Assembly: GCF_018885265.1 (NCBI RefSeq)
Contig: NZ_CP076538.1
Span: 5,678,001-5,742,000 of the forward strand
Length of the DNA: 64,000 nucleotides
Source: Amycolatopsis aidingensis
Lineage (GTDB): Bacteria > Actinomycetota > Actinomycetes > Mycobacteriales > Pseudonocardiaceae
Reading direction: 5' to 3'
Shown: one piece after another, positions 7,370-47,062 of the stretch
Layout of the letters: each line of letters starts with the position of its first letter
Numbering within the stretch: the first letter of the stretch is position 1
Notes under the pieces: generated by a model
What the model saw: only the letters and a program-made list of their open reading frames with translations
What the model was told of the DNA's origin: nothing
Databases searched by the model: none
Program-made: the position numbers and the translations under genes

Positions 7370-10006
7370 ATGACCCCGTTCCGCTCCCGTCTCGCCCTGC
7401 TGCTCGCCGTGCTGTGCGCCCTCGCGCTGACGCCGGGCACGGTCTCCGCCGGATCCATCGCCACGGCTGACGCCGAAGGTCTGGTCATGCCGAAAGCGAT
7501 GGGCGAAGGCAGCACCGTCACCGGCTGGCACATCCGTTCCTCCGCCGAGCTCGACGCCGGTGGGGAACGCATCTCCCTACCGGACTTCGGCAACGCCGGC
7601 TGGTACCCGGTGGCGCCCCGGTCCACGATCGTGGCGGGGCTGGTGCAGAACGGCCGCTACCCCGGCCTTTTCCACTCCACCAACATGCGCGACCAGGTCG
7701 ACCGCGCGGACTTCGAGGTGCCGTGGTGGTACCGCACCGAGTTCCGCGCCGCGGGCCGGGAGCGGCACACCTTCCTGCGGATACCCGGCGCGGTCTCCCG
7801 TGCCGACGTATGGCTCAACGGCCGCTCGCTCGGTGAGGTCGTCGGTACCTACAACGCCCGCGAGTTCGACATCGGGCCACTGCTGCGGCCGGGGCGCAAC
7901 GCGCTGGCCATCCGGGTGCACCCCTCCGACCCGGACAAGGACTTCGCGATCAGCTGGCTGGACTGGGCACAGCCCGCTCCGGACAACAACATGGGCATCT
8001 GGCGGGACGTGCGGCTCGTGCGGACCGGCCCGGTGACGCTGCTCGGTTCCTACGTGCACACCGACCTGGACCTGCCGAGCATGGACTCGGCACGACTGGT
8101 CGCGCATGCCGAGGTACGGAACAACTCGGCACGCGCGCGGAACGTGGTGCTGCACGGCCGGATCGGACCGCACCGGCTGCGCACGGAGGTCCGGCTGGCC
8201 GCCGGACAGACCCGCACCGTTGCCTTCCCCGGCGTGGCGGTGCGGGACCCGCGGGTGTGGTGGCCGGCCCAGCTCGGCAAGCAGCCGCTGTACCGGCTGG
8301 AGCTCACCGCGTGGACCGGGTTCCGGTTGTCCGACCGGGACCGCACGACCTTCGGCATCCGCGAGGTGGACTCGAAGCTGAACGAGTCCGGCGACCGGCA
8401 GTTCTACGTCAATGGCAGGGCATTGCAGATCCGCAGCGCGGGCTGGGCCTCCGACCTGCTGCTCCGGTCCCGGCCGGACCGCCTGCGCGCGCAGCTGGAG
8501 TACGTCCGCGATCTCGGGCTGAACGCCATCCGGCTGGAGGGCAAGCTGGAGACCCCGGAGTTCTACGAGATCGCGGACCGTACCGGGATCATGCTGCTCA
8601 CCGGCTGGGAATGCTGCGACAAGTGGGAGCCGTGGACCAGCTGGGGCGGGGAGGAATGGACCGCCGAGGACTACCCCATCGCCAGGGACTCGATGGCCGC
8701 GCAGGCACGGGTGCTGCGCAGCCACCCGAGCGTGATCGCGTTCCTGATCGGCAGTGACATCGCGCCGCCGGAGGACGTGCAGCGGATGTACCTTGCGGAG
8801 CTGGAACGGGCTGGCTGGCCGAACCCGGTCATCCCGGCCGCCGCCTCGCGGAACGCCCCCGAGCCGCTGGGGCCCTCCGGGTTGAAGATGGAGGGACCCT
8901 ACGACTGGGTTCCGCCAAACTACTGGTACGGCGACCGGCTCGGCGCGGCCTACGGCTTCGCCGGTGAGCTGAGCGCCGGCCACTCGGTACCCACAATGGA
9001 CAGCCTGCGCCGGATGCTCTCCCCCGCGGAGCGGGAGAAGCTCTGGCGGGAGCCGGCTGCGCAGCAGTTCCACACCGGGCGCGGCACGCCGCCCTTCGAC
9101 AACCTCCAGCTGTTCAGCACGGCGCTTGCGCAGCGCTACGGTGCCCCCACCGGCCTTGCCGACTATGTGGAGAAGGCGCAGCTGGCCAACTACGAGAACA
9201 CCAGGGCACAGTTCGAGGCCTACGCGCGCCGGATGACCGCACAACGCCCGGCGACCGGGCTGGTCTACTGGATGCTGAACAACGCGTGGCCCTCGCTGAA
9301 CTGGCATCTCTACGACTACTACCTGAACCCCGGCGGCGCCTACTTCGGCGCGAAGAAGGGGAACGAGGTGCTGCACGTCCAGTACTCCTACGACGACCGT
9401 TCGGTCGTGGTGGTCGGCCAGGGACCCGAGCCGGAACGTGGGCTGACCGTGCGGGCGGAGGTCTACAACCTGGACGGCACCCTGATGCACCGGTCCGAGC
9501 GGCAAGGGGTGTCGGTGGGTTCGCTGGACGTGACCGAGGCGCTGACCCTGCCGGAGCTGTCCGGGCTGTCGGACACCTACTTCGTGCGGCTCGGGCTGTC
9601 CAGGAACGGGCAGCAGCTCAGCCGCAACACCTACTGGCTGTCCACCCGGCCGGATGTGCCGGACTGGGAGGAGTCGAGCTGGTACCACACGCCGGTCAGC
9701 CAGTACGCCGACCTCGGCGGCCTTGCGGAGCTGCCGGACGCGGCCATCGAGGTGCGCACCCGCACCGGGCACGCGGGCACCACGGTGACCCTGCGCAACA
9801 CCTCGGAGACGATCGCCCCCGCGGTGCGGGCCACCCTGCGCAAACCGGACGGCTCGCGGGTGCTTCCGGTCACCTGGAGCGACAACTACGTCTCGCTGTG
9901 GCCGGGCGAGTCGGTCACCCTGCGAGCCTCGTACCAGCAGCAGGACGCGGGCGGGCGGCCCACGGTGGAGATCGGCGGGGTGAACGCGGTGCCGGCGGCA
10001 CGCTGA
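7370..10006 (+). CDS. Secreted GH2 exo-beta-D-glucosaminidase-type glycoside hydrolase
   Basis: An 878-residue secreted enzyme. ATG at 7370 with an upstream AGAGGAG site gives a Sec signal peptide (RSRLALLLAVLCALAL, cleavage near VSA-G). GH2 architecture follows: a sugar-binding jelly roll, an Ig-like beta-sandwich, a TIM barrel, and C-terminal Ig-like domains. In CsxA of Amycolatopsis, the type enzyme for exo-beta-D-glucosaminidase, the general acid is Asp and the nucleophile Glu about 70 residues later; here Asp463 sits in IGSDIAPP and Glu533 in FAGELSAG, the same spacing and motif. The likely role is release of glucosamine from chitosan ends outside the cell. A longer frame from 7310 lacks a good site. 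The exact substrate needs assay. Confidence 0.85.
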   Translation: MTPFRSRLALLLAVLCALALTPGTVSAGSIATADAEGLVMPKAMGEGSTVTGWHIRSSAELDAGGERISLPDFGNAGWYPVAPRSTIVAGLVQNGRYPGLFHSTNMRDQVDRADFEVPWWYRTEFRAAGRERHTFLRIPGAVSRADVWLNGRSLGEVVGTYNAREFDIGPLLRPGRNALAIRVHPSDPDKDFAISWLDWAQPAPDNNMGIWRDVRLVRTGPVTLLGSYVHTDLDLPSMDSARLVAHAEVRNNSARARNVVLHGRIGPHRLRTEVRLAAGQTRTVAFPGVAVRDPRVWWPAQLGKQPLYRLELTAWTGFRLSDRDRTTFGIREVDSKLNESGDRQFYVNGRALQIRSAGWASDLLLRSRPDRLRAQLEYVRDLGLNAIRLEGKLETPEFYEIADRTGIMLLTGWECCDKWEPWTSWGGEEWTAEDYPIARDSMAAQARVLRSHPSVIAFLIGSDIAPPEDVQRMYLAELERAGWPNPVIPAAASRNAPEPLGPSGLKMEGPYDWVPPNYWYGDRLGAAYGFAGELSAGHSVPTMDSLRRMLSPAEREKLWREPAAQQFHTGRGTPPFDNLQLFSTALAQRYGAPTGLADYVEKAQLANYENTRAQFEAYARRMTAQRPATGLVYWMLNNAWPSLNWHLYDYYLNPGGAYFGAKKGNEVLHVQYSYDDRSVVVVGQGPEPERGLTVRAEVYNLDGTLMHRSERQGVSVGSLDVTEALTLPELSGLSDTYFVRLGLSRNGQQLSRNTYWLSTRPDVPDWEESSWYHTPVSQYADLGGLAELPDAAIEVRTRTGHAGTTVTLRNTSETIAPAVRATLRKPDGSRVLPVTWSDNYVSLWPGESVTLRASYQQQDAGGRPTVEIGGVNAVPAAR

Positions 10007-10031: not shown

Positions 10032-10103
10032 TGGGCGCAGCTGGGTTCGAACCAGCGACCCCCTGCTTGTAAGGCAGGTGCTCTTCCGCTGAGCTATGCG
10101 CCC
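10032..10103 (-). tRNA. tRNA-Val (UAC)
   Basis: A complete 72-nt cloverleaf on the minus strand: acceptor GGGCGCA paired with TGCGCCC, D-stem GCTC/GAGC, anticodon stem CCTGC/GCAGG with loop CTTACAA giving anticodon TAC, 5-nt variable loop, T-stem GCTGG/CCAGC with loop TTCGAAC. CCA is not encoded. It lies 25 bp downstream of the glycosidase stop and reads opposite to it. Confidence 0.95.
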
Positions 10104-11129: not shown

Positions 11130-11541
11130 GACTTTCACTCCTCCAGCTACAACCGAGTGCGACGGGCACCGGCACAGCCGGGCCGCCGCACGTTTCAACG
11201 TCAGATGCGCATAGCGAACACGTCAACGGCGCACGGCGCAACCGGCCACACCGGATCGTCGGCAAGTCGTGTCGCTGCGCAGCGCCGCCCCGTGTCCCGC
11301 CACCTTCGCCCGGCAGACCCGTGCGGCCGGGCTCGGTGGGCAGGGCTGGCTTAGTCTGGAGGGTGTGCCCCACCAGGGGACCAGCCAGCCGAAACACCCG
11401 GCCAACGTTACCGCGCAGTAGCGATGACGGCGGCCGAGTTTACGACGACGATGACAGGCGAAGCACAGCCCAGCCCGCCGCCATCGACGCCGGCGACTGC
11501 GCACAACCAGGCAAGACGGCTACAACCGGCGAGGAGATCCC
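11130..11541. other. Divergent intergenic region before aceE
   Basis: About 410 bp without a convincing gene, separating the divergent DUF3052 and aceE genes. Short open frames here lack family resemblance. It should hold both promoters. I see no clear operator dyad and no riboswitch-like structure; a GAGGAG site sits just before the aceE TTG start. Confidence 0.5.
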
Positions 11542-14334
11542 TTGGCCCCGCAGAACAACGGCGCCTCCGGCCAGGAGGCCCCGGCCCGTGTCCGCGTCAT
11601 CCGTGACGGCTTGGCCGCACACCTGCCCGACATCGACCCGGAGGAGACGTCCGAGTGGCTGGACTCCTTCGACGCCGCGCTGGCCCGCGGCGGGCAGCAG
11701 CGGGCCCGTTATCTGATGTTGAGGGTCCTGGAGCGCGCTCGCGAACGCAACATCGGCGTACCGCCGCTGACGGCCACCGACTACGTGAACACGATCCCGA
11801 CCGAGAACGAGCCATGGTTCCCCGGTGACGAGGAGATCGAGCGCCGCTACCGCGCGTACATCCGGTGGAACGCCGCGGTGATGGTGCACCGCGCACAGCG
11901 TCCCGGCGTCGGCGTCGGCGGTCATATCTCCACCTACGCCTCCTCGGCGGCCCTCTACGAGGTCGGGTTCAACCACTTCTTCCGCGGCAAGGACCACTCC
12001 GGTGGCGGGGACCACATCTTCGTGCAGGGGCACGCCTCCCCCGGCATCTATGCCCGTGCCTACCTCGAGGGCAGGCTGAGCGCCGACCAGCTGGACGGGT
12101 TCCGGCAGGAGTACTCGCACGCGGGCGAGGGCGGCGGGCTGCCGTCCTACCCGCACCCCAGGCTGATGCCGGACTTCTGGGAGTACCCGACGGTGTCCAT
12201 GGGGCTGGGCCCGATGAACGCGATCTTCCAGGCCCGGTTCAACCGCTACCTGCGCGACCGCGGCATCAAGGACACGAACGACCAGCACGTATGGGCGTTC
12301 CTCGGGGACGGCGAGATGGACGAGCCGGAGTCGCGCGGCCTGATCCACGTCGCCGCGGGCGAGGGCCTGGACAACCTCACCTTCGTGATCAACTGCAACC
12401 TGCAGCGGCTGGACGGCCCGGTGCGCGGGAACGGCAAGATCATCCAGGAGCTGGAGGCCTACTTCCGCGGCGCGGGCTGGAACGTCATCAAGGTGATCTG
12501 GGGCCGCGAGTGGGACGCCCTGCTGCACGGCGACCGGGACGGCGCACTGGTGAACCTGATGAACACCACCCCGGACGGTGACTTCCAGACCTACAAGGCC
12601 AACGACGGCGCCTACGTCCGGGAGCACTTCTTCGGCCGCGACCCGCGCACCAAGGAGCTGGTCAAGGACCTCTCCGACGCCGACATCTGGAACCTCAAGC
12701 GCGGTGGCCACGACTACCGCAAGGTCTACGCCGCGTACAAGGCGGCGCTGGAGCACCACGGCCAGCCGACCGTGATCCTGGCGCACACGATCAAGGGCTA
12801 CGGCCTCGGCCCTGCCTTCGAGGGCCGCAACGCCACGCACCAGATGAAGAAGCTGACCCTGGACGACCTCAAGCTGTTCCGGGACGCCCAGCGCATCCCG
12901 ATCAGCGACGAGGAGCTGGAGCGCGACCCGAAGCTGCCGCCGTACTACCACCCCGGCGAGGACTCACCGGAGATCGAGTACCTGCTCAGCCGCAGGCGCA
13001 CCCTCGGCGGGTTCCTGCCCGAGCGCAGGGCCAAGGCCAAGCCGCTGGTGCTGCCGGGGGACAAGGTGTACGACTCGGTGCGCAAGGGCTCCGGCAAGCA
13101 GGAGGTCGCCACCACGATGGCCTTCGTCCGGCTGGTGCGCGAGCTGGCCAAGGACGCCGAGATCGGCAACCGGATCGTGCCGATCATCCCGGACGAGGCC
13201 CGCACGTTCGGTCTGGACTCGATGTTCCCGACGGCCAAGATCTACAACCCGCACGGGCAGAGCTACACCTCGGTGGACGCCCAGCTGATGCTGGCCTACA
13301 AGGAGTCCGAGCGGGGGCAGTTGCTGCACGAGGGCATCAACGAGGCCGGGTCCACCGCCTCGTTCACCGCGATCGGCACCTCCTACGCCACGCACGGTGA
13401 GCCGATGATCCCGATCTACATCTTCTACTCGATGTTCGGGTTCCAGCGCACCGGGGACGGGCTGTACGCGGCGGCCGACCAGATGGCCCGCGGGTTCGTG
13501 CTGGGCGCCACCGCGGGCCGCACCACGCTGACCGGGGAGGGCCTGCAGCACGCCGACGGCCACTCGATCCTGCTGTCCGCGACCAACCCGGCCACGGTGA
13601 CCTACGACCCGGCGTGGTCCTTCGAGATCGCGCATATCGTGCGGGACGGCCTGCGCCGGATGTACGGCGAGGGCGGACCGGACGGCTGCGGCGAGAACGT
13701 CTTCTACTACATCACCGTCTACAACGAGCCGTACCAGCAGCCCGCCGAGCCGGAGGACCTGGATGTGGACGGGCTGCTGCGCGGGCTGTACCGGTACGCG
13801 GCCGCGCCGGATGGCACCGGGCCGCAGGCGCAGATCCTGGTCTCCGGGGTCACCATGCCGGACGCGCTGCGGGCCCAGCAGATGCTTGCCGAGCAGTGGG
13901 GTGTGCGGGCCTCGGTCTGGTCGGCCACCTCGTGGACCGAGCTGCGCCGGGAGGCCGTGGAGGTGGACCGGGACAACATGCTCTACCCGGCCAGCGAGCC
14001 GCGGGTCCCGTACGTGACCGAGGCGCTGCGCGACGTCGCGGGCCCGGTGGTCGCGGTGTCGGACTGGATGCGCGCGGTCCCGGACCTGATCCGTCCCTGG
14101 GTGCCCACCGACATGCTCACCCTGGGCACGGACGGCTTCGGCTTCTCCGACACCCGGCCCGCCGCGCGGCGGCACTTCCTTGTCGACGCGGAGTCGATCA
14201 CCGTCGGTGTGCTGGCAGCGCTCGCCAAGCGCGGCGAGGTCGAGCAGTCGAAGGTGGTGGAGGCCGCCCGCGAGTACCGCATCGACGACGTCTCGGCCGC
14301 GGGCCCGCAGACCTCCGACTCCGGCGTCGCCTGA
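11542..14334 (+). CDS. aceE: Pyruvate dehydrogenase E1 component (homodimeric)
   Basis: A 930-residue E1 of the homodimeric AceE type, converting pyruvate to a hydroxyethyl-ThDP intermediate and acetylating the lipoyl E2 to give acetyl-CoA. Key features are [11 protein letters not shown] near residue 127, the ThDP/Mg motif [12 protein letters not shown], the [10 protein letters not shown] active-site region and [11 protein letters not shown]. The start is TTG at 11542 with GAGGAGAT upstream; no better start aligns. It forms an operon-like pair with lldD 38 bp downstream. In M. tuberculosis aceE also sits between the ahpE/DUF3052 pair and fasR-fabD, so gene order is conserved. E2 and E3 are not in the window. 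Confidence 0.97.
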
Positions 14335-26145: not shown

Positions 26146-27033
26146 ATGGCCCAGAACACGGCGGTCCACGTGCTGGACGATCTCACCGGCGAACCAGCCG
26201 CCGAGTCGGTGCGGTTCGCCCTGGACGGGGTCGACTATGAAATTGACCTGGCCGCGGACAATGCCGCCGACCTTCGTGAAGTGCTCGAGCGTTATGTCAC
26301 GCACGGGCGCCGCATCGGCGGGAGAAAGAGCACCCGGCGGGTGAACCGGAAGTCCGGCGCCACGAAGGAGGCCACACCGAAAGCACCGGCCAAGAAGACC
26401 GCGGCCAAGAAGGAAACCGCGAAGAAAACGGCTACCACGAAAACGAAGACAGCCACGAAGAAAGCGGCCGCAACGAAGTCCGGAACCGGATCGAAGACCG
26501 CCGCGAAGGCGGCACCGGCCAAGGCGACCACCCGGCGCGCGAGCACCAAGGCCGCGGCCTCGAAGTCCACCAAGGCCGAGCCCAAACAGGCCGCGAAGAA
26601 GACCGGTACCGGTTCGAAGTCCACCTCGAAAGCGGCCGCCAAGACGAAGTCGACCCCGAAGACGACCAGCAAGGTCCCTCCGGTCCTGTTCTCCGCCCCG
26701 ACTGACGTGCACGGACGGCCAACGCGTGCGCGTGAACAGCCAACGCGTGCGCGTGGGCGGCAAACACACCATCCGCGCGTGTTTGCCGTCTGCGCACGCG
26801 CGTTTGCCCTCCACATACGCGCTTTGGCCGTCCGGCGACGGCCTTTACAGGGCTTTCAGTTCCTCGACGATCTCGCTGATCGAGGATTTCGCGTCCCCGA
26901 AGAGCATGCTCGTCTTGGGGTCGAAGAAAAGGTCGTTGTCGATACCGGCGAAACCGGATCCCATGGACCGTTTCAGCACGATGACCGAGCGGCTGGTGTT
27001 CACCTTGAGGATCGGCATCCCGTAGATGGGTGA
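26146..27033 (+). CDS. Lsr2-type dimerisation domain fused to a Lys/Ala-rich histone H1-like tail
   Basis: A 295-residue protein. Residues 1-62 match the Lsr2 N-terminal dimerisation domain (HVLDDLTGEPAAESVRFALDG ... YEIDL). The usual Lsr2 C-terminal AT-hook-like RGR domain is missing; instead residues 63-180 are a Lys/Ala/Thr tail with repeated AAKK and KTAT units, like HupS or histone H1. Residues ~188-231 are Arg-rich and encoded by a palindromic repeat element, and the last ~63 residues are read antisense through the 3' end of pntB. The true product may be shorter if translation or mRNA ends earlier. ATG at 26146 has GGGGAGG. It probably bridges or compacts DNA. Confidence 0.75.
   Translation: MAQNTAVHVLDDLTGEPAAESVRFALDGVDYEIDLAADNAADLREVLERYVTHGRRIGGRKSTRRVNRKSGATKEATPKAPAKKTAAKKETAKKTATTKTKTATKKAAATKSGTGSKTAAKAAPAKATTRRASTKAAASKSTKAEPKQAAKKTGTGSKSTSKAAAKTKSTPKTTSKVPPVLFSAPTDVHGRPTRAREQPTRARGRQTHHPRVFAVCARAFALHIRALAVRRRPLQGFQFLDDLADRGFRVPEEHARLGVEEKVVVDTGETGSHGPFQHDDRAAGVHLEDRHPVDG
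26717..26833. repeat. Large imperfect palindrome of GGCMAACRCG units between convergent genes
   Basis: Three units on the plus strand (26717-26734, 26738-26755, 26759-26768) face three inverted units (26774-26787, 26792-26809, 26815-26833). The core is GGC[AC]AAC[AG]CG, often followed by TGCGCGTG. The same units recur at 46.87-47.02 kb. The element can fold into a long stem and lies just past the ends of the Lsr2-like and pntB genes, so it may act as a bidirectional terminator. Confidence 0.8.
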
Positions 27034-28245
27034 GGCGGGGTCGGTCTCGGCCGCGGGATTGGTCACATCGTTGGCGCCGATCACCAGGGTGACGTCGGTG
27101 TGGCCGAACTCCGAGTTGCTCTCGTCCATCTCCTTGAGCTGCTCGTAGGGCACATCGGCCTCGGCGAGCAACACGTTCATATGCCCCGGCATCCGGCCGG
27201 CGACCGGGTGGATCGCGTAGGAGACCGCGATGCCTTTGCCCTCCAGGATCTCGGCCATCTCGCGCACCGCGTGCTGCGCCTGGGCGACGGCCATCCCGTA
27301 CCCTGGCACCACCGCCACCTTCCCTGCGTAGGCGAGCTGGATCGCGGTGTCCGCCGCGCTCGTGCTGCGCACCGACCGATCGGCGTCGGACCGGCTGCTC
27401 GCGGCGGCCGCGCCTCCGCCGAAACCGCCGCCGACGATCGCCGGGATCGACCGGTTCATCGCCTTGGCCATCAGGTTGGTCAGGATCGAGCCGGAGGCGC
27501 CGACGATCATGCCGGCCACGATGAGCGCGGTGTTGTCCAGCGCCAGACCCATGGCGGCGGCCGAAAGCCCGGTGAGCGCGTTGAGCAGCGAGATCACCAC
27601 GGGCATATCGGCGCCGCCGATCGGCAGCACCACCATGATCCCGAAGGCGGCCGCGGCCACCAGCACCCCGATGATCAGCCACTCGGACTGGCCACCCGCG
27701 GCGATCACCACGGAGCACACCACGGCGGCGACCAGCAACAGCACGTTCAGCGGCTGCTGCAACCGCCCCACGGTGATCGGCTTGGTCGGCAGGATCTCCT
27801 GTAGCTTGCCGAAGGCGACGTTGGAGCCCCAGAAGGACACCGAACCGACGATGGCCGCGAACAGCGAGGCGATCGCCACGTGGGCGGCCTCGTGTGCGTA
27901 GCCGTCCGTGGTGCGGAACTCCACCCAGGCGATGATCGCCACCGTGCCGCCGCCCACGCCGTTGAACAGCGCCACCATCTGCGGCATCGCGGTCATCTTC
28001 ACCTTGCGCGCCGAGGGCACACCGATCACGGTGCCGAGTAACACGCCGAGCGCGATCAGCAGCCAGTTGCTCATCCCCGGCATCAGCAGGGTGGCCACGA
28101 TCGCGATACCCATCCCGACCGCGGCGATCCAGTTGCCGCGTACCGCGGTCCGCGGGCCGGTCATCCCCATCAGGCCGTAGATGAACAACGCGAAGGCGAT
28201 GATGTACAGGGCCCCGATGAAACTCTCGCTCTGCAGCCAGCTCAT
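26845..28245 (-). CDS. pntB: NAD(P) transhydrogenase beta subunit
   Basis: A 466-residue integral membrane subunit with about nine TM helices in the first ~270 residues, then the NADP(H)-binding dIII domain (VVPGYGMAVAQAQHA, the MPGHMNVLLAEADVPY segment and GANDVTNPAA). It couples proton entry to hydride transfer between NADH and NADP+. The ATG at 28245 overlaps the stop of pntAb (ATGA). It ends 8 bp from a large palindrome, and its last ~190 bp are overlapped by the opposing Lsr2-like frame. Confidence 0.95.
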   Translation of the reverse strand: MSWLQSESFIGALYIIAFALFIYGLMGMTGPRTAVRGNWIAAVGMGIAIVATLLMPGMSNWLLIALGVLLGTVIGVPSARKVKMTAMPQMVALFNGVGGGTVAIIAWVEFRTTDGYAHEAAHVAIASLFAAIVGSVSFWGSNVAFGKLQEILPTKPITVGRLQQPLNVLLLVAAVVCSVVIAAGGQSEWLIIGVLVAAAAFGIMVVLPIGGADMPVVISLLNALTGLSAAAMGLALDNTALIVAGMIVGASGSILTNLMAKAMNRSIPAIVGGGFGGGAAAASSRSDADRSVRSTSAADTAIQLAYAGKVAVVPGYGMAVAQAQHAVREMAEILEGKGIAVSYAIHPVAGRMPGHMNVLLAEADVPYEQLKEMDESNSEFGHTDVTLVIGANDVTNPAAETDPASPIYGMPILKVNTSRSVIVLKRSMGSGFAGIDNDLFFDPKTSMLFGDAKSSISEIVEELKAL

Positions 28246-35499: not shown

Positions 35500-36705
35500 A
35501 TGCGAACCAACAACGCTCAACCAGGCGATTCCTCCACCGGAACGCGCACCGGCCGACTTCCGGTGGCCGCCTTGCTGGCACTCGCCACGGCCGCGTTCAT
35601 CACGGTACTGACCGAGGCGTTGCCCGCCGGGGTGCTGCCCGCGATGAGCGCCGACCTCGGGGTCGGCGAGTCCGCGATGGGCCAGTCGGTGACGATCTAC
35701 GCCATCGGCACGGCGGTCGCGGCGATCCCGCTGTCCACGGTCACCGCAGGCTGGCGGCGCAAGCGCTTGCTGCTGACCGGGGTGACGGGATTCGCGGTGG
35801 CCAACACGGCGACCGCGGTGTCCACCTCCTTCGCCCTGACCATGGTCGGCCGGTTCGCCGGTGGCGTGGCCGCCGGTGTGGTGTGGGCACTGCTGGCAGG
35901 CTACGCCCGCCGGATGGCTCCCCCGCACCTGCGGGGCAGGGCGATCGCGATCGTGATGGCAGGCATCCCGCTCGCGCTGTCCCTCGGCGTGCCTGCCGGA
36001 ACCTTCCTCGGTGCCGCGCTCGGCTGGCGGGTCACCTTCGCGGTGATGTCCGTGCTCGCCGCCGCGCTGCTGGCATGGACCATCGCCGCGGTCCCGGACT
36101 TTCCGGGGCAGCGGCGGGGAATCCGGGTCCAGCTGCTGCGCACGCTCGGCATCGCAGGGGTGGCACCGGTACTGCTGGTCACCGTGCTCTTCGTGCTGGC
36201 CCACACCATTCTGTACACCTACATCGCCTCCTTCCTGCACCGGCTCCACATGGGCTCCGCCGTCGATACGGTGCTGCTGGTGTTCGGCGTGTCCTCGGTG
36301 GTCAGCATCTGGATCGTGGGGTCGCAGATCGACCGTCGGCTGCGGACGCTCAGCATCGCCGGGACGCTGCTGGTCGCGGGGGCCGCCACGGTGCTGGCGC
36401 TGCGGGCCACGGAACCCGCGCTGGTCTACCTCGCCGTGGTGCTCTGGGGACTCGGCTGGGGAGGCGTCCCCACCCTGCTGCAGACGGCCGTGGGGGATGC
36501 CGGGGGCGAGGCCGCGGACACCGCGCTGGCCATGCTGGTCACCCTGTGGAACGCGGCCATGGCGGGCGGTGGGATTGTCGGCGGAATCCTGCTCGGCGCG
36601 CTCGGCCCCGCCTCGTTCCCGTGGAGCGTGCTGGTGTTGCTCGTGCCGGTGCTGTACGTGGTGACGGCCGCGCGGGCACACGGGTTCCCGGCGCGGCGTA
36701 GCTGA
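35500..36705 (+). CDS. MFS transporter (DHA1/AraJ-like drug or sugar efflux)
   Basis: A 401-residue major facilitator with 12 predicted helices. Typical signals are the N-terminal TEALPAGVLPAMSADLGV region, the loop GWRRKRLL between helices 2 and 3, and SLGVPAGTFLGAALGWR resembling motif C of drug antiporters of the AraJ/YdhP type. It is divergent from the MerR gene, suggesting inducible efflux. ATG at 35500 lacks a convincing Shine-Dalgarno. The substrate is unknown. Confidence 0.87.
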   Translation: MRTNNAQPGDSSTGTRTGRLPVAALLALATAAFITVLTEALPAGVLPAMSADLGVGESAMGQSVTIYAIGTAVAAIPLSTVTAGWRRKRLLLTGVTGFAVANTATAVSTSFALTMVGRFAGGVAAGVVWALLAGYARRMAPPHLRGRAIAIVMAGIPLALSLGVPAGTFLGAALGWRVTFAVMSVLAAALLAWTIAAVPDFPGQRRGIRVQLLRTLGIAGVAPVLLVTVLFVLAHTILYTYIASFLHRLHMGSAVDTVLLVFGVSSVVSIWIVGSQIDRRLRTLSIAGTLLVAGAATVLALRATEPALVYLAVVLWGLGWGGVPTLLQTAVGDAGGEAADTALAMLVTLWNAAMAGGGIVGGILLGALGPASFPWSVLVLLVPVLYVVTAARAHGFPARRS

Positions 36706-46110: not shown

Positions 46111-46941
46111 GTGCTGGTCCTGTTGCCGCCCTCGGAGACCAAGGCGCCCGGTGGGGACGGTCCACCGCTGGACTTGGACGCGCTGTCCTTTTCGGCGCTG
46201 AACCCGGTACGTGCCAAGCTGGCCGACGCGCTGGTCGATCTGGCCACCGACGTACCGGCTAGCCTGCGTGCGCTCAAACTGTCCGAACGGCAGCGGGACG
46301 AGGTGACCCGCAACGCCGAGTTATGGTCCGCGCCGACCCTGCCCGCGCTGCGGCGCTACACCGGCGTGCTCTACGACGCGCTGGACGTGCCCGGCCTGCG
46401 CAGGGCCGAGCTGGCGAAGGCGGGCAGGCGGCTGGCGGTCGCCTCGGCGTTGTTCGGGGTGCTGCGCGGTACCGACCGGATCCCGGCCTACCGGCTCTCC
46501 GGCGGCAGCGCCCTGCCCGCCGTGGGTCCGCTCGGCGGGTTCTGGCGCCCGGTGTTGGAGCCGGTGCTGGCGGCGGAACCGGGCCTGGTGGTGGATCTGC
46601 GGTCCGGGCCGTACGCCGCGCTGGCCAGGGTCCCCGGCGCCGTGACGGTCCGGGTGGTCAGCACGGACGCCCAGGGCAGGCGCACGACCGTCAGCCACCA
46701 CAACAAGGCATACAAGGGCAGGCTGGCCAGGGTGCTGGCGACCCTTCCGCGTGAACCGTCCACCGTGGACTCACTCGTCCGCGCGGTGGCCAAGGCCGGA
46801 CTCCCGATCGACCGGGTGGGCGAGCACGAGCTCGAGCTGACCGCCGACCCTGACTCGCAGGTCAACCGGCGTGTTTGCCGTTCCCGTAACCGGGTTTGCT
46901 CCCCATGGCCAACACGGTTACCTAGACGGCCAACACGGTGA
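46111..46941 (+). CDS. yaaA: YaaA family peroxide stress protein, C-terminus altered by repeat element
   Basis: A 276-residue protein of the YaaA (DUF328) family: LVLLPPSETKAPGG at the N-terminus, the GTDRIPAYRLSGG segment and HHNKAYKGRLAR. In E. coli YaaA limits free iron during peroxide stress and binds DNA. The expected C-terminus is reached near ELELTADPDSQ; the last ~24 residues are Arg-rich and encoded by the GGCMAACRCG repeat element, so the natural end has been replaced. GTG at 46111 follows TACCCT by 6 nt, leaderless type. Confidence 0.83.
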   Translation: MLVLLPPSETKAPGGDGPPLDLDALSFSALNPVRAKLADALVDLATDVPASLRALKLSERQRDEVTRNAELWSAPTLPALRRYTGVLYDALDVPGLRRAELAKAGRRLAVASALFGVLRGTDRIPAYRLSGGSALPAVGPLGGFWRPVLEPVLAAEPGLVVDLRSGPYAALARVPGAVTVRVVSTDAQGRRTTVSHHNKAYKGRLARVLATLPREPSTVDSLVRAVAKAGLPIDRVGEHELELTADPDSQVNRRVCRSRNRVCSPWPTRLPRRPTR

Positions 46942-47021
46942 CGTGGAGAGCAAACTCGCGCGCGTGGGCGGCCAACGCGTGCGCGGGAACGGCAAACGCG
47001 TGCGCGTGGGCGGCAAACACG
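46870..47021. repeat. Second array of GGCMAACRCG repeat units
   Basis: Two inverted units (46870-46880, 46892-46900) precede six direct units (46907-46917, 46928-46938, 46949-46966, 46970-46985, 46991-47008, 47012-47021). The first unit with its flank (CGTGTTTGCCGTTCCCG) pairs, with one mismatch, with the unit around 46983-46999. The core and the TGCGCGTG extension are the same as at 26.7 kb. It lies at the convergent yaaA/protease junction. Confidence 0.8.
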
Positions 47022-47062
47022 ACGGGGCCCCTGCCACTGGAGCAGGGTGGCAGGGGCCCGTC
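47021..47062. terminator. Terminator-like hairpin at the end of the subtilase operon
   Basis: A stem of about 16 bp with one bulge (GACGGGGCCCCTGCCAC at 47021-47037 against 47047-47062) directly after the repeat array and 32 bp beyond the protease stop on the minus strand. Confidence 0.7.

Follow-up and report, generated by a model that had tools for sequence, protein, structure and literature searches.

Oriented arrays of a 21-bp unit lie behind genes of Amycolatopsis aidingensis and head putative DUF222-HNH mobile elements

Short arrays whose units keep a strict 21-bp spacing lie mostly near gene 3' ends in Amycolatopsis aidingensis. They hold their positions in the sister genome G187, their units are written in species-own dialects, and they accompany 14 of the 14 DUF222 gene copies examined, where the boundary of the repeated element falls at the array head. 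The evidence favors reading them as protein-docking arrays that form the end of a mobile element and possibly also act as terminators. More specifically, we suggest from sequence evidence, with a probability of roughly 45%, that the arrays are docking sites from the end of homing-type mobile elements that have been kept behind genes.

RESULTS

Two arrays in the window

The window is the whole 64,000-nt stretch of contig NZ_CP076538.1 analyzed here. A sequence-only reading of it had described three direct and three inverted copies of a short unit, spread over about 117 bp between two convergent genes, and our mapping bears this out (Table 1). The 117-bp element consists of 3 + 3 copies of a 21-bp unit whose heads meet at the center, and it forms a 56-nt inverted repeat with arms that are 75% complementary and 11 nt apart. 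The regular spacing had been overlooked: successive same-strand units are exactly 21 bp apart, and the same holds for 8 of 8 same-strand pairs in the window. The 10-base core proposed earlier, GGC[AC]AAC[AG]CG, is exact in three of the six units, the remaining three being AGCCAACGCG, GGCAAACACA, and GGCCAAAGCG. This core occurs 10 times in the window; across 100 first-order Markov random sequences the average count was 1.55 and the highest 6, and no sequence had two core matches within 170 bp of each other. One match, at 35799, is solitary and lies within a called gene.

The recurrence of the unit at 46.9 kb likewise held, with two minus-strand and six plus-strand units. Rfam yielded no match at either array, and its only match in the window was a tRNA (10032-10103).

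TABLE 1 Positions of array features and neighboring genes in the window
Feature	Position	Strand or unit orientation	Remarks
Lsr2-like gene	26146..26705	+	Faces the array
Whole palindromic array	26715..26831	3 units → + 3 units ←	Facing innermost cores at a distance of 26
Core GCCAACGCG	26718..26726	+	Outermost unit; half sense to the minus-strand pntB-like gene
Core GCCAACGCG	26739..26747	+	21 bp further along
Core GCAAACACA	26760..26768	+	Innermost; arm of the central hairpin
Innermost core	26778..26786	-	CGTGTTTGC read on +; head of the half sense to the plus-strand gene
Second core	26799..26807	-	CGCGTTTGC read on +
Third core, degenerate	26820..26828	-	CGCTTTGGC read on +
pntB-like gene (pyridine nucleotide transhydrogenase beta subunit)	26845..28245	-	Convergent neighbor
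Second array	46861..47030	2 units ← then 6 units →	Same-strand step 21 bp
Two opposite-orientation cores	46870..46899	-	Overlap the end of a plus-strand YaaA-like ORF (stop 46941)
Six direct cores (46908, 46929, 46950, 46971, 46992, 47013)	46908..47021	+	Sense to the minus-strand subtilisin-like gene
Terminator-like hairpin, 13-bp perfect stem	47025..47059		Between the subtilisin-like stop and the array head; apart from the array

The first array is flanked by a gene that we take to be Lsr2-like from its sequence alone, and by a presumed pntB gene, also named from its sequence, whose stop codon is 13 bp from the array. The Lsr2-like ORF (26146-27033, plus strand) is not closed by an in-frame stop ahead of the array and reads on across it as far as 27033; the gene of the sister genome G187 has a stop immediately ahead of the array. 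A 3'-end frame difference or a sequencing error in a run of C would explain the open frame. Beside the second array lie genes that, judging from their sequences, are presumably YaaA-like and subtilisin-like. The hairpin behind the latter abuts the array head directly and is kept in G187.

A dispersed family with a strict 21-bp step

In gene sense, the unit reads CG[TA]GTT[TG]GC followed by 12 nt. A search of the 7.66-Mb genome for GCMAACNCG-N12-GCMAACNCG returned 121 forward and 114 reverse matches, and the reversed-pattern control returned 0. The unit is thus neither confined to the two window sites nor found at chance frequency (235 two-unit matches versus 0), as the idea of an interspersed family had implied, and clusters were found in related Pseudonocardiaceae too. 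Among the matches listed, at least 48 clusters lie in the first 3.06 Mb, from which we extrapolate about 120 arrays in the whole genome. We sampled 20-kb stretches around clusters, one further stretch, and the window (860 kb in 41 sequences), and this array-enriched sample contains 53 arrays. Thirty-four are head-to-tail only (62-126 bp long), 16 have facing halves (centers of 26-29 bp), and 3 are other mixtures. Palindromy, which had been taken as the defining feature, is not supported in that role, the 34 purely head-to-tail arrays being without it.

Same-strand pairs within 30 bp of each other fell at 21 bp in 114 of 116 cases in this genome (the others at 20 and 19) and in 119 of 122 cases in 40 stretches of nine other genomes picked by a three-unit pattern, both counts being biased by the choice of stretches with 21-bp patterns. 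Contiguous stretches that were not picked by pattern gave 41 of 43 pairs at 21 bp in this genome (482 kb; the others at 10 and 23) and 51 of 51 in G187 (398 kb).

Conserved positions and species dialects

Across the family, the three-unit pattern occurs in 29 of 390 genomes and 8 of 46 genera, leaving 361 genomes without it; a looser pattern reached 62 of 390, partly through coding repeats. Three-unit counts were 176 in G210, 174 in G187, 149 in G204, 107 in this genome, and 102 in G222, and the matches listed include Amycolatopsis acidicola, A. alkalitolerans, A. palatopharyngis, Crossiella sp. S99.2, and Saccharomonospora sp. CUA-673. A handful of matches in other phyla are presumably due to chance or to coding repeats. 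In the nine other genomes, 45 arrays had a sense gene upstream in 36 cases (at a median of 37 bp, four beyond 500 bp), an antisense gene in 6, and divergent genes in 3. The 12-nt spacers are species-specific.

G187 is the closest genome by pntB (95% identical) among 30 searched. Over about 400 kb of synteny, the sites of 13 of 14 G187 arrays are occupied by an array here as well, and the reverse comparison likewise gave 13 of 14, both window arrays included. The dialect differs at 13 shared sites: at the pntB junction, for example, where the flanks are alignable, G187 has CGAGTTTGC-type units versus CGCGTTTGC/CGCGTTGGC-type units here. Since non-coding divergence between the two genomes amounts to 0.11 substitutions and 0.013 indels per bp, the 21-bp spacing is held, by either selection or renewal. 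In G020, G192, G004, and G055, a hairpin (identified by eye) stands at the pntB junction in place of the array.

Some species without this core have 21-bp arrays of CGAGTTACGC-, CGTGTGTTCC-, CGAGTCGTA-, or CGAGTTCTGC-type units, to which we were led by a lag scan covering 470 kb of loci from relatives. The scan gave 10 windows at lag 21, 10 at lag 15, 7 at lag 18, 5 at lag 30, and 0-3 at others, so that lag 21 by itself is not in excess; nine of the ten lag-21 windows read as arrays by eye, and the tenth (L211) is coding. Loci with such own 21-bp dialects include L419, L420, L423, L439, and L411 (CGCGAGTTACGCCTTCAATCA and others). One non-core dialect array, searched for in 12 genomes with a pattern by which palindromes can count twice, had at least 78 matches in G052, 72 in G031, 81 in G007, 53 in G030, 46 in G017, 20 in G018, 8 in G020, and 2 in G048, and no match in G000, G043, G027, or G033.

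Conservation of position across genera is weak: of 17 array-bearing query genes for which an orthologue was in the sample, 4 correspond to an array here, versus 3 of 53 controls (Fisher p 0.054), two of the four being one gene in G210 and G212, and a wrong gene call in L160 possibly hiding two more matches that were left uncounted. At the 3' end of a gene that we take from its sequence to be M20-peptidase-like (L160, L264, and L296), arrays occur in this genome, G210, and G212, which represent two genera, with two arrays each in this genome and G210. At L293-L295 of G216 and at L260, L261, and L263 of G210, arrays adjoin longer non-coding dispersed repeats that contain GGTGGTCATCCCG or a close form, with no evident gene. 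This sequence is partly missing in G210 L263, and in G216 it is followed at some distance by its complement, giving an inverted repeat.

Arrays at the head of DUF222-HNH elements

Three of the sampled arrays head a 1.55-kb repeat (92-94% identical) that encodes a DUF222 protein (PF02720, E 4e-24) of 374 residues, counted from an assumed start codon; in the family consensus, the C-terminus is of the HNH type. The genome has 15 DUF222 matches; the 14 listed are 95-98% identical to the query copy, and each of these near-identical DUF222-HNH genes has an array of about 5-6 units upstream. In an alignment of the 14 copies, the left boundary of homology coincides with the first base of the array head, where mean column identity rises from 0.38 to 0.92, and the right boundary with the final sense codons of the ORF, where identity falls from 0.98 to 0.33. 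The first aligned DUF222 codon lies 391-425 nt from the array head, and the units step by 21 bp apart from one step of 22 in L181 and L182. Ten of these heads follow a sense coding end at 2-13 nt (eight by a strict automatic rule), two lie beside antisense coding sequence, and two are ambiguous. By eye, the ends and flanks of the 14 aligned elements contain no terminal inverted repeat or target-site duplication. Searches for relatives of the DUF222 family found none among solved structures at E 0.1 and no match in NCBIfam. The activity of the putative nuclease is uncertain, since the G000 subfamily has Glu where the consensus H-N-H motif has Asn.

The same order, array and then DUF222 gene, is found in G187 (4 copies examined of 6 matches) and G055 (3 of 9) and, in another genus, at L070 and L279 of G299 (56 matches). 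Of the six G187 matches, one is intact (76% identity) and the others are decayed or partial; all four that were fetched have arrays. Their identity to the query copy is 67-76%, versus the 95-98% seen within this genome. At L334 and L335, where both flanks align, G187 has an array whose element is decayed or carries an internal deletion, and likewise at L340, where only the right flank aligns; the other eleven loci have no clear G187 orthologue within the fetched sequence. Gene conversion or repeated homing predicts this combination of same sites and a likeness within genomes far above that between genomes, and parallel insertion could instead underlie the shared DUF222 sites. Two G187 loci, L386 (~9500-9900) and L395 (~11450-12100), are short deletion derivatives that keep the array, linker, and right tail with most of the gene gone, resembling miniature elements.

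The association is far from universal. Only 3 of the 53 sampled arrays have a DUF222 gene alongside, the window element itself has none, and most DUF222 loci fetched from other species lack an array. The array-bearing genomes G210, G222, G216, and G212 have 0 DUF222 matches, which refutes DUF222 as a universal partner, and no array of this core lies within roughly 1.5 kb of their HNH genes (1, 1, 2, and 6, respectively). Three DUF222 copies fetched from G192, which belong to a subfamily at 52% identity, are without an array, and the single array-adjacent copy of that genome (L281) shows the other order, with the 3' end of the gene facing the array. DUF222 is thus not the sole driver, given its absence from those four genomes and the G192 copies that lack arrays or have the other order. 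DUF222-HNH genes are expanded in G192 and G299, with 40 and 56 matches per genome, respectively. Apart from DUF222, no family that recurs beside arrays in several genomes resembled a mobile-element protein, and none of that kind was seen next to arrays in the four genomes without DUF222; the recurring families are of general kinds that we take from their sequences to be sensor-kinase, response-regulator, SDR, and ABC types.

Placement relative to genes

Genes were called with a simple codon-usage script that missed or mis-stranded some of them, among them the Lsr2-like gene of the window, which was set by hand; the context counts carry that error. Forty-five of the 53 arrays overlap a called gene 3' end or lie within 60 bp of one. 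Convergent junctions hold 27 of 53 arrays, versus 121 of 769 gene pairs (16%) of the same sequences (binomial p 3e-9), and at some convergent junctions of 57-111 bp the spacer is almost entirely array. Thirteen head-to-tail arrays sit between codirectional genes, 10 in sense and 3 in antisense orientation (8 and 1 under stricter gene and gap rules).

This distribution is what we would expect if the arrays were selected 3'-end elements, the main rival explanation, which we hold to be possible but doubtful. A protein on 3-6 phased sites would act as a polar terminator or roadblock that halts RNA polymerase leaving the gene; facing arrays would serve two convergent genes, and DUF222 elements would merely exploit the arrays. 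Retention of position in 13 of 14 cases, the hairpins that replace the array at the pntB junction of four relatives, and the occurrence of arrays without DUF222 point the same way. Such terminators would, however, be patchy, as 361 of 390 family genomes lack three-unit core matches (though some have other dialects), and they would number only ~120 per genome by extrapolation. Our gene calls put five of the 53 arrays between divergent genes, and none of the 11 tRNA genes reported in the sampled stretches, the window tRNA-Val being counted twice, lies within 400 bp of an array. Moreover, the gene at 47.0 kb already has a separate hairpin behind it, and this explanation lacks a known candidate protein. 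As to whether arrays replace hairpin terminators throughout the genome, hairpin z-scores at transcript ends with and without arrays are not clearly different.

In 24 of the 34 head-to-tail arrays, a called sense gene ends at most 80 bp from the head, often within 20 nt, and placement is alike in other species. The arrays might accordingly act as 3'-UTR RNA, either as a repeated site for an RNA-binding protein or in Rho loading just past the translation stop. Their length of 62-126 bp and their unstructured sense RNA, moderately richer in C (38%) than in G (30%), would agree with this. We nevertheless consider it improbable: Rho does not require a period fixed at 21 nt together with a conserved core of 9 nt, spacing by a multiple of the helical turn is a sign of double-stranded DNA, and half of the units are antisense in facing arrays.

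Folding and the order of cores

The sequence-only reading implied that the functional form is a large RNA or DNA hairpin of the palindrome, a terminator or cruciform. The window element does fold strongly (z -7.1 and -5.5), and both arms of the innermost pair read GCAAACAC in 15 of the 16 palindromic arrays and GCCAACAC in the remaining one. This complementarity is retained by the innermost pair alone: the outer paired units show no covariation, with a spacer identity of 0.58 versus 0.625 when shuffled. The 34 of 53 arrays without inverted units do not fold as sense RNA (mean z -0.4), although a few of them have a hairpin ahead of the head. As for an intrinsic terminator, no stable hairpin followed by a U tract was found, and by eye the palindromic copies have UUU only inside the 3' arm of the central hairpin. 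We therefore reject the long hairpin as a conserved, general form and regard it as a very improbable functional form.

The core depends on rank in the 34 head-to-tail arrays: CGTGTTTGC occupies the head in 32, rank 2 in 25, and rank 3 in 0. Together with the lack of folding, such rank-dependent cores are better explained by ordered protein sites on double-stranded DNA than by a hairpin or by simple slippage. A spacing of two helical turns fits ordered sites as well, and we infer that protein binds to the arrays.

DISCUSSION

A docking array at the end of a homing-type element

Our preferred reading, a docking array that forms a mobile-element end, takes the window element as a pair of facing arrays of the 21-bp unit that would be one member of the dispersed family. 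Its gene-bearing members look like homing-type mobile elements, with about 5-6 units followed by a DUF222-HNH gene, and the array head would mark the left end of the element. Array-only copies would be shortened or non-autonomous members left behind stop codons. Most likely, each 21-bp unit, being two helical turns long and thus presenting one helix face, docks one protomer of a DNA-binding protein. Copies would overwrite one another, plausibly through gene conversion driven by the nuclease, and such overwriting would yield species-own unit dialects with positions and spacing persisting.

Besides the gaps in the DUF222 association, two observations speak against this reading: facing arrays are not predicted by a one-ended element, and the 13 of 14 shared positions argue against frequent present-day movement. 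The mobile-element-end and terminator readings may both hold, since an element end could be retained for its use in termination. The three roles envisaged by the first reading, those of a terminator, a protein-binding site, and a mobile element, each stay partly viable.

Comparison with known repeats

In the openly licensed papers that we searched, we recognized no account of such arrays, and the word Amycolatopsis is absent from the main text on RepRanger (PMC12306157). For the gene-bearing copies, the nearest named kind is the REP13E12/DUF222-HNH ("13E12") repeat of mycobacteria, a dispersed multi-copy DUF222-HNH gene with near-identical copies per genome. Here, in contrast, gene-less arrays far outnumber gene-bearing ones in our sample, and to our knowledge REP13E12 has no 21-bp array at one end. 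In how they may work, the arrays resemble the transposase sites at the ends of Tn7 (TnsB sites), IS21, and Mu, with several head-to-tail, rank-specific sites, each about 20-22 bp long, placed exactly where the element ends; our elements share the tandem putative sites at the left terminus (about 5-6 units), but they show no terminal inverted repeat or target duplication by eye and lie near stop codons.

Mycobacterial interspersed repetitive units (MIRUs) are also actinobacterial, tandem, intergenic, and oriented with the neighboring gene. Their units are about 46-101 bp long, whereas ours are 21 bp with a drifting sequence and a fixed period. DNA uptake sequences of Neisseriaceae come in species dialects and as inverted pairs behind genes, but are mostly single, at about one per kb; in our 860 kb of stretches chosen for arrays, a second core stands 21 bp away from 177 of 276 strict cores. 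The TAACTGA repeats of Beggiatoaceae are abundant intergenic direct repeats in oriented sets as well, but these 7-mers mostly face start codons (PMC4679880), unlike our spaced units behind stop codons. The DUF222/REP13E12 family is mentioned in PMC10589994.

The earlier suggestion of REP-like elements did not hold as far as REP membership is concerned. REPs and BIMEs mobilized by a RAYT (Y1) transposase, with their GTAG- and CGTC-tagged families, are likewise interspersed, extragenic, near gene ends, and species-specific, with some inverted pairs, but we give this origin practically no credence: our units are not hairpins of 20-40 bp, since direct arrays do not fold, the strict 21-bp head-to-tail register prevails whereas head-to-tail dimers of tagged REPs are reported to be absent or under-represented (PMC3733652), and 13 of 14 array-bearing genomes, this one included, have no Y1_Tnp match. 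Among 32 genomes searched, only G226, an array bearer, and G150, which has no core-pattern match, gave one, and we rejected REP/RAYT as a candidate.

Significance

The fullest form of our proposal is a new class of actinobacterial mobile DNA: oriented 21-bp docking arrays behind stop codons that would be rewritten into dialects by a homing nuclease or an equivalent and would double as polar transcription stops. All of these parts holding together seems to us rather unlikely. Period and position are conserved, and sequence is species-variable, across several genera of antibiotic producers. Such conservation is a testable sign of a protein that reads one face of the DNA helix and of genome-wide rewriting of dispersed sites, and part of the large DUF222-HNH family may gain a role from it. 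Should the arrays turn out to stop transcription, they would amount to a terminator of a kind unusual in bacteria, one dependent on a protein, and would be useful as a genetic part. The arrays would also offer a handle for tracing, by coevolution, the partner protein that matches each dialect.
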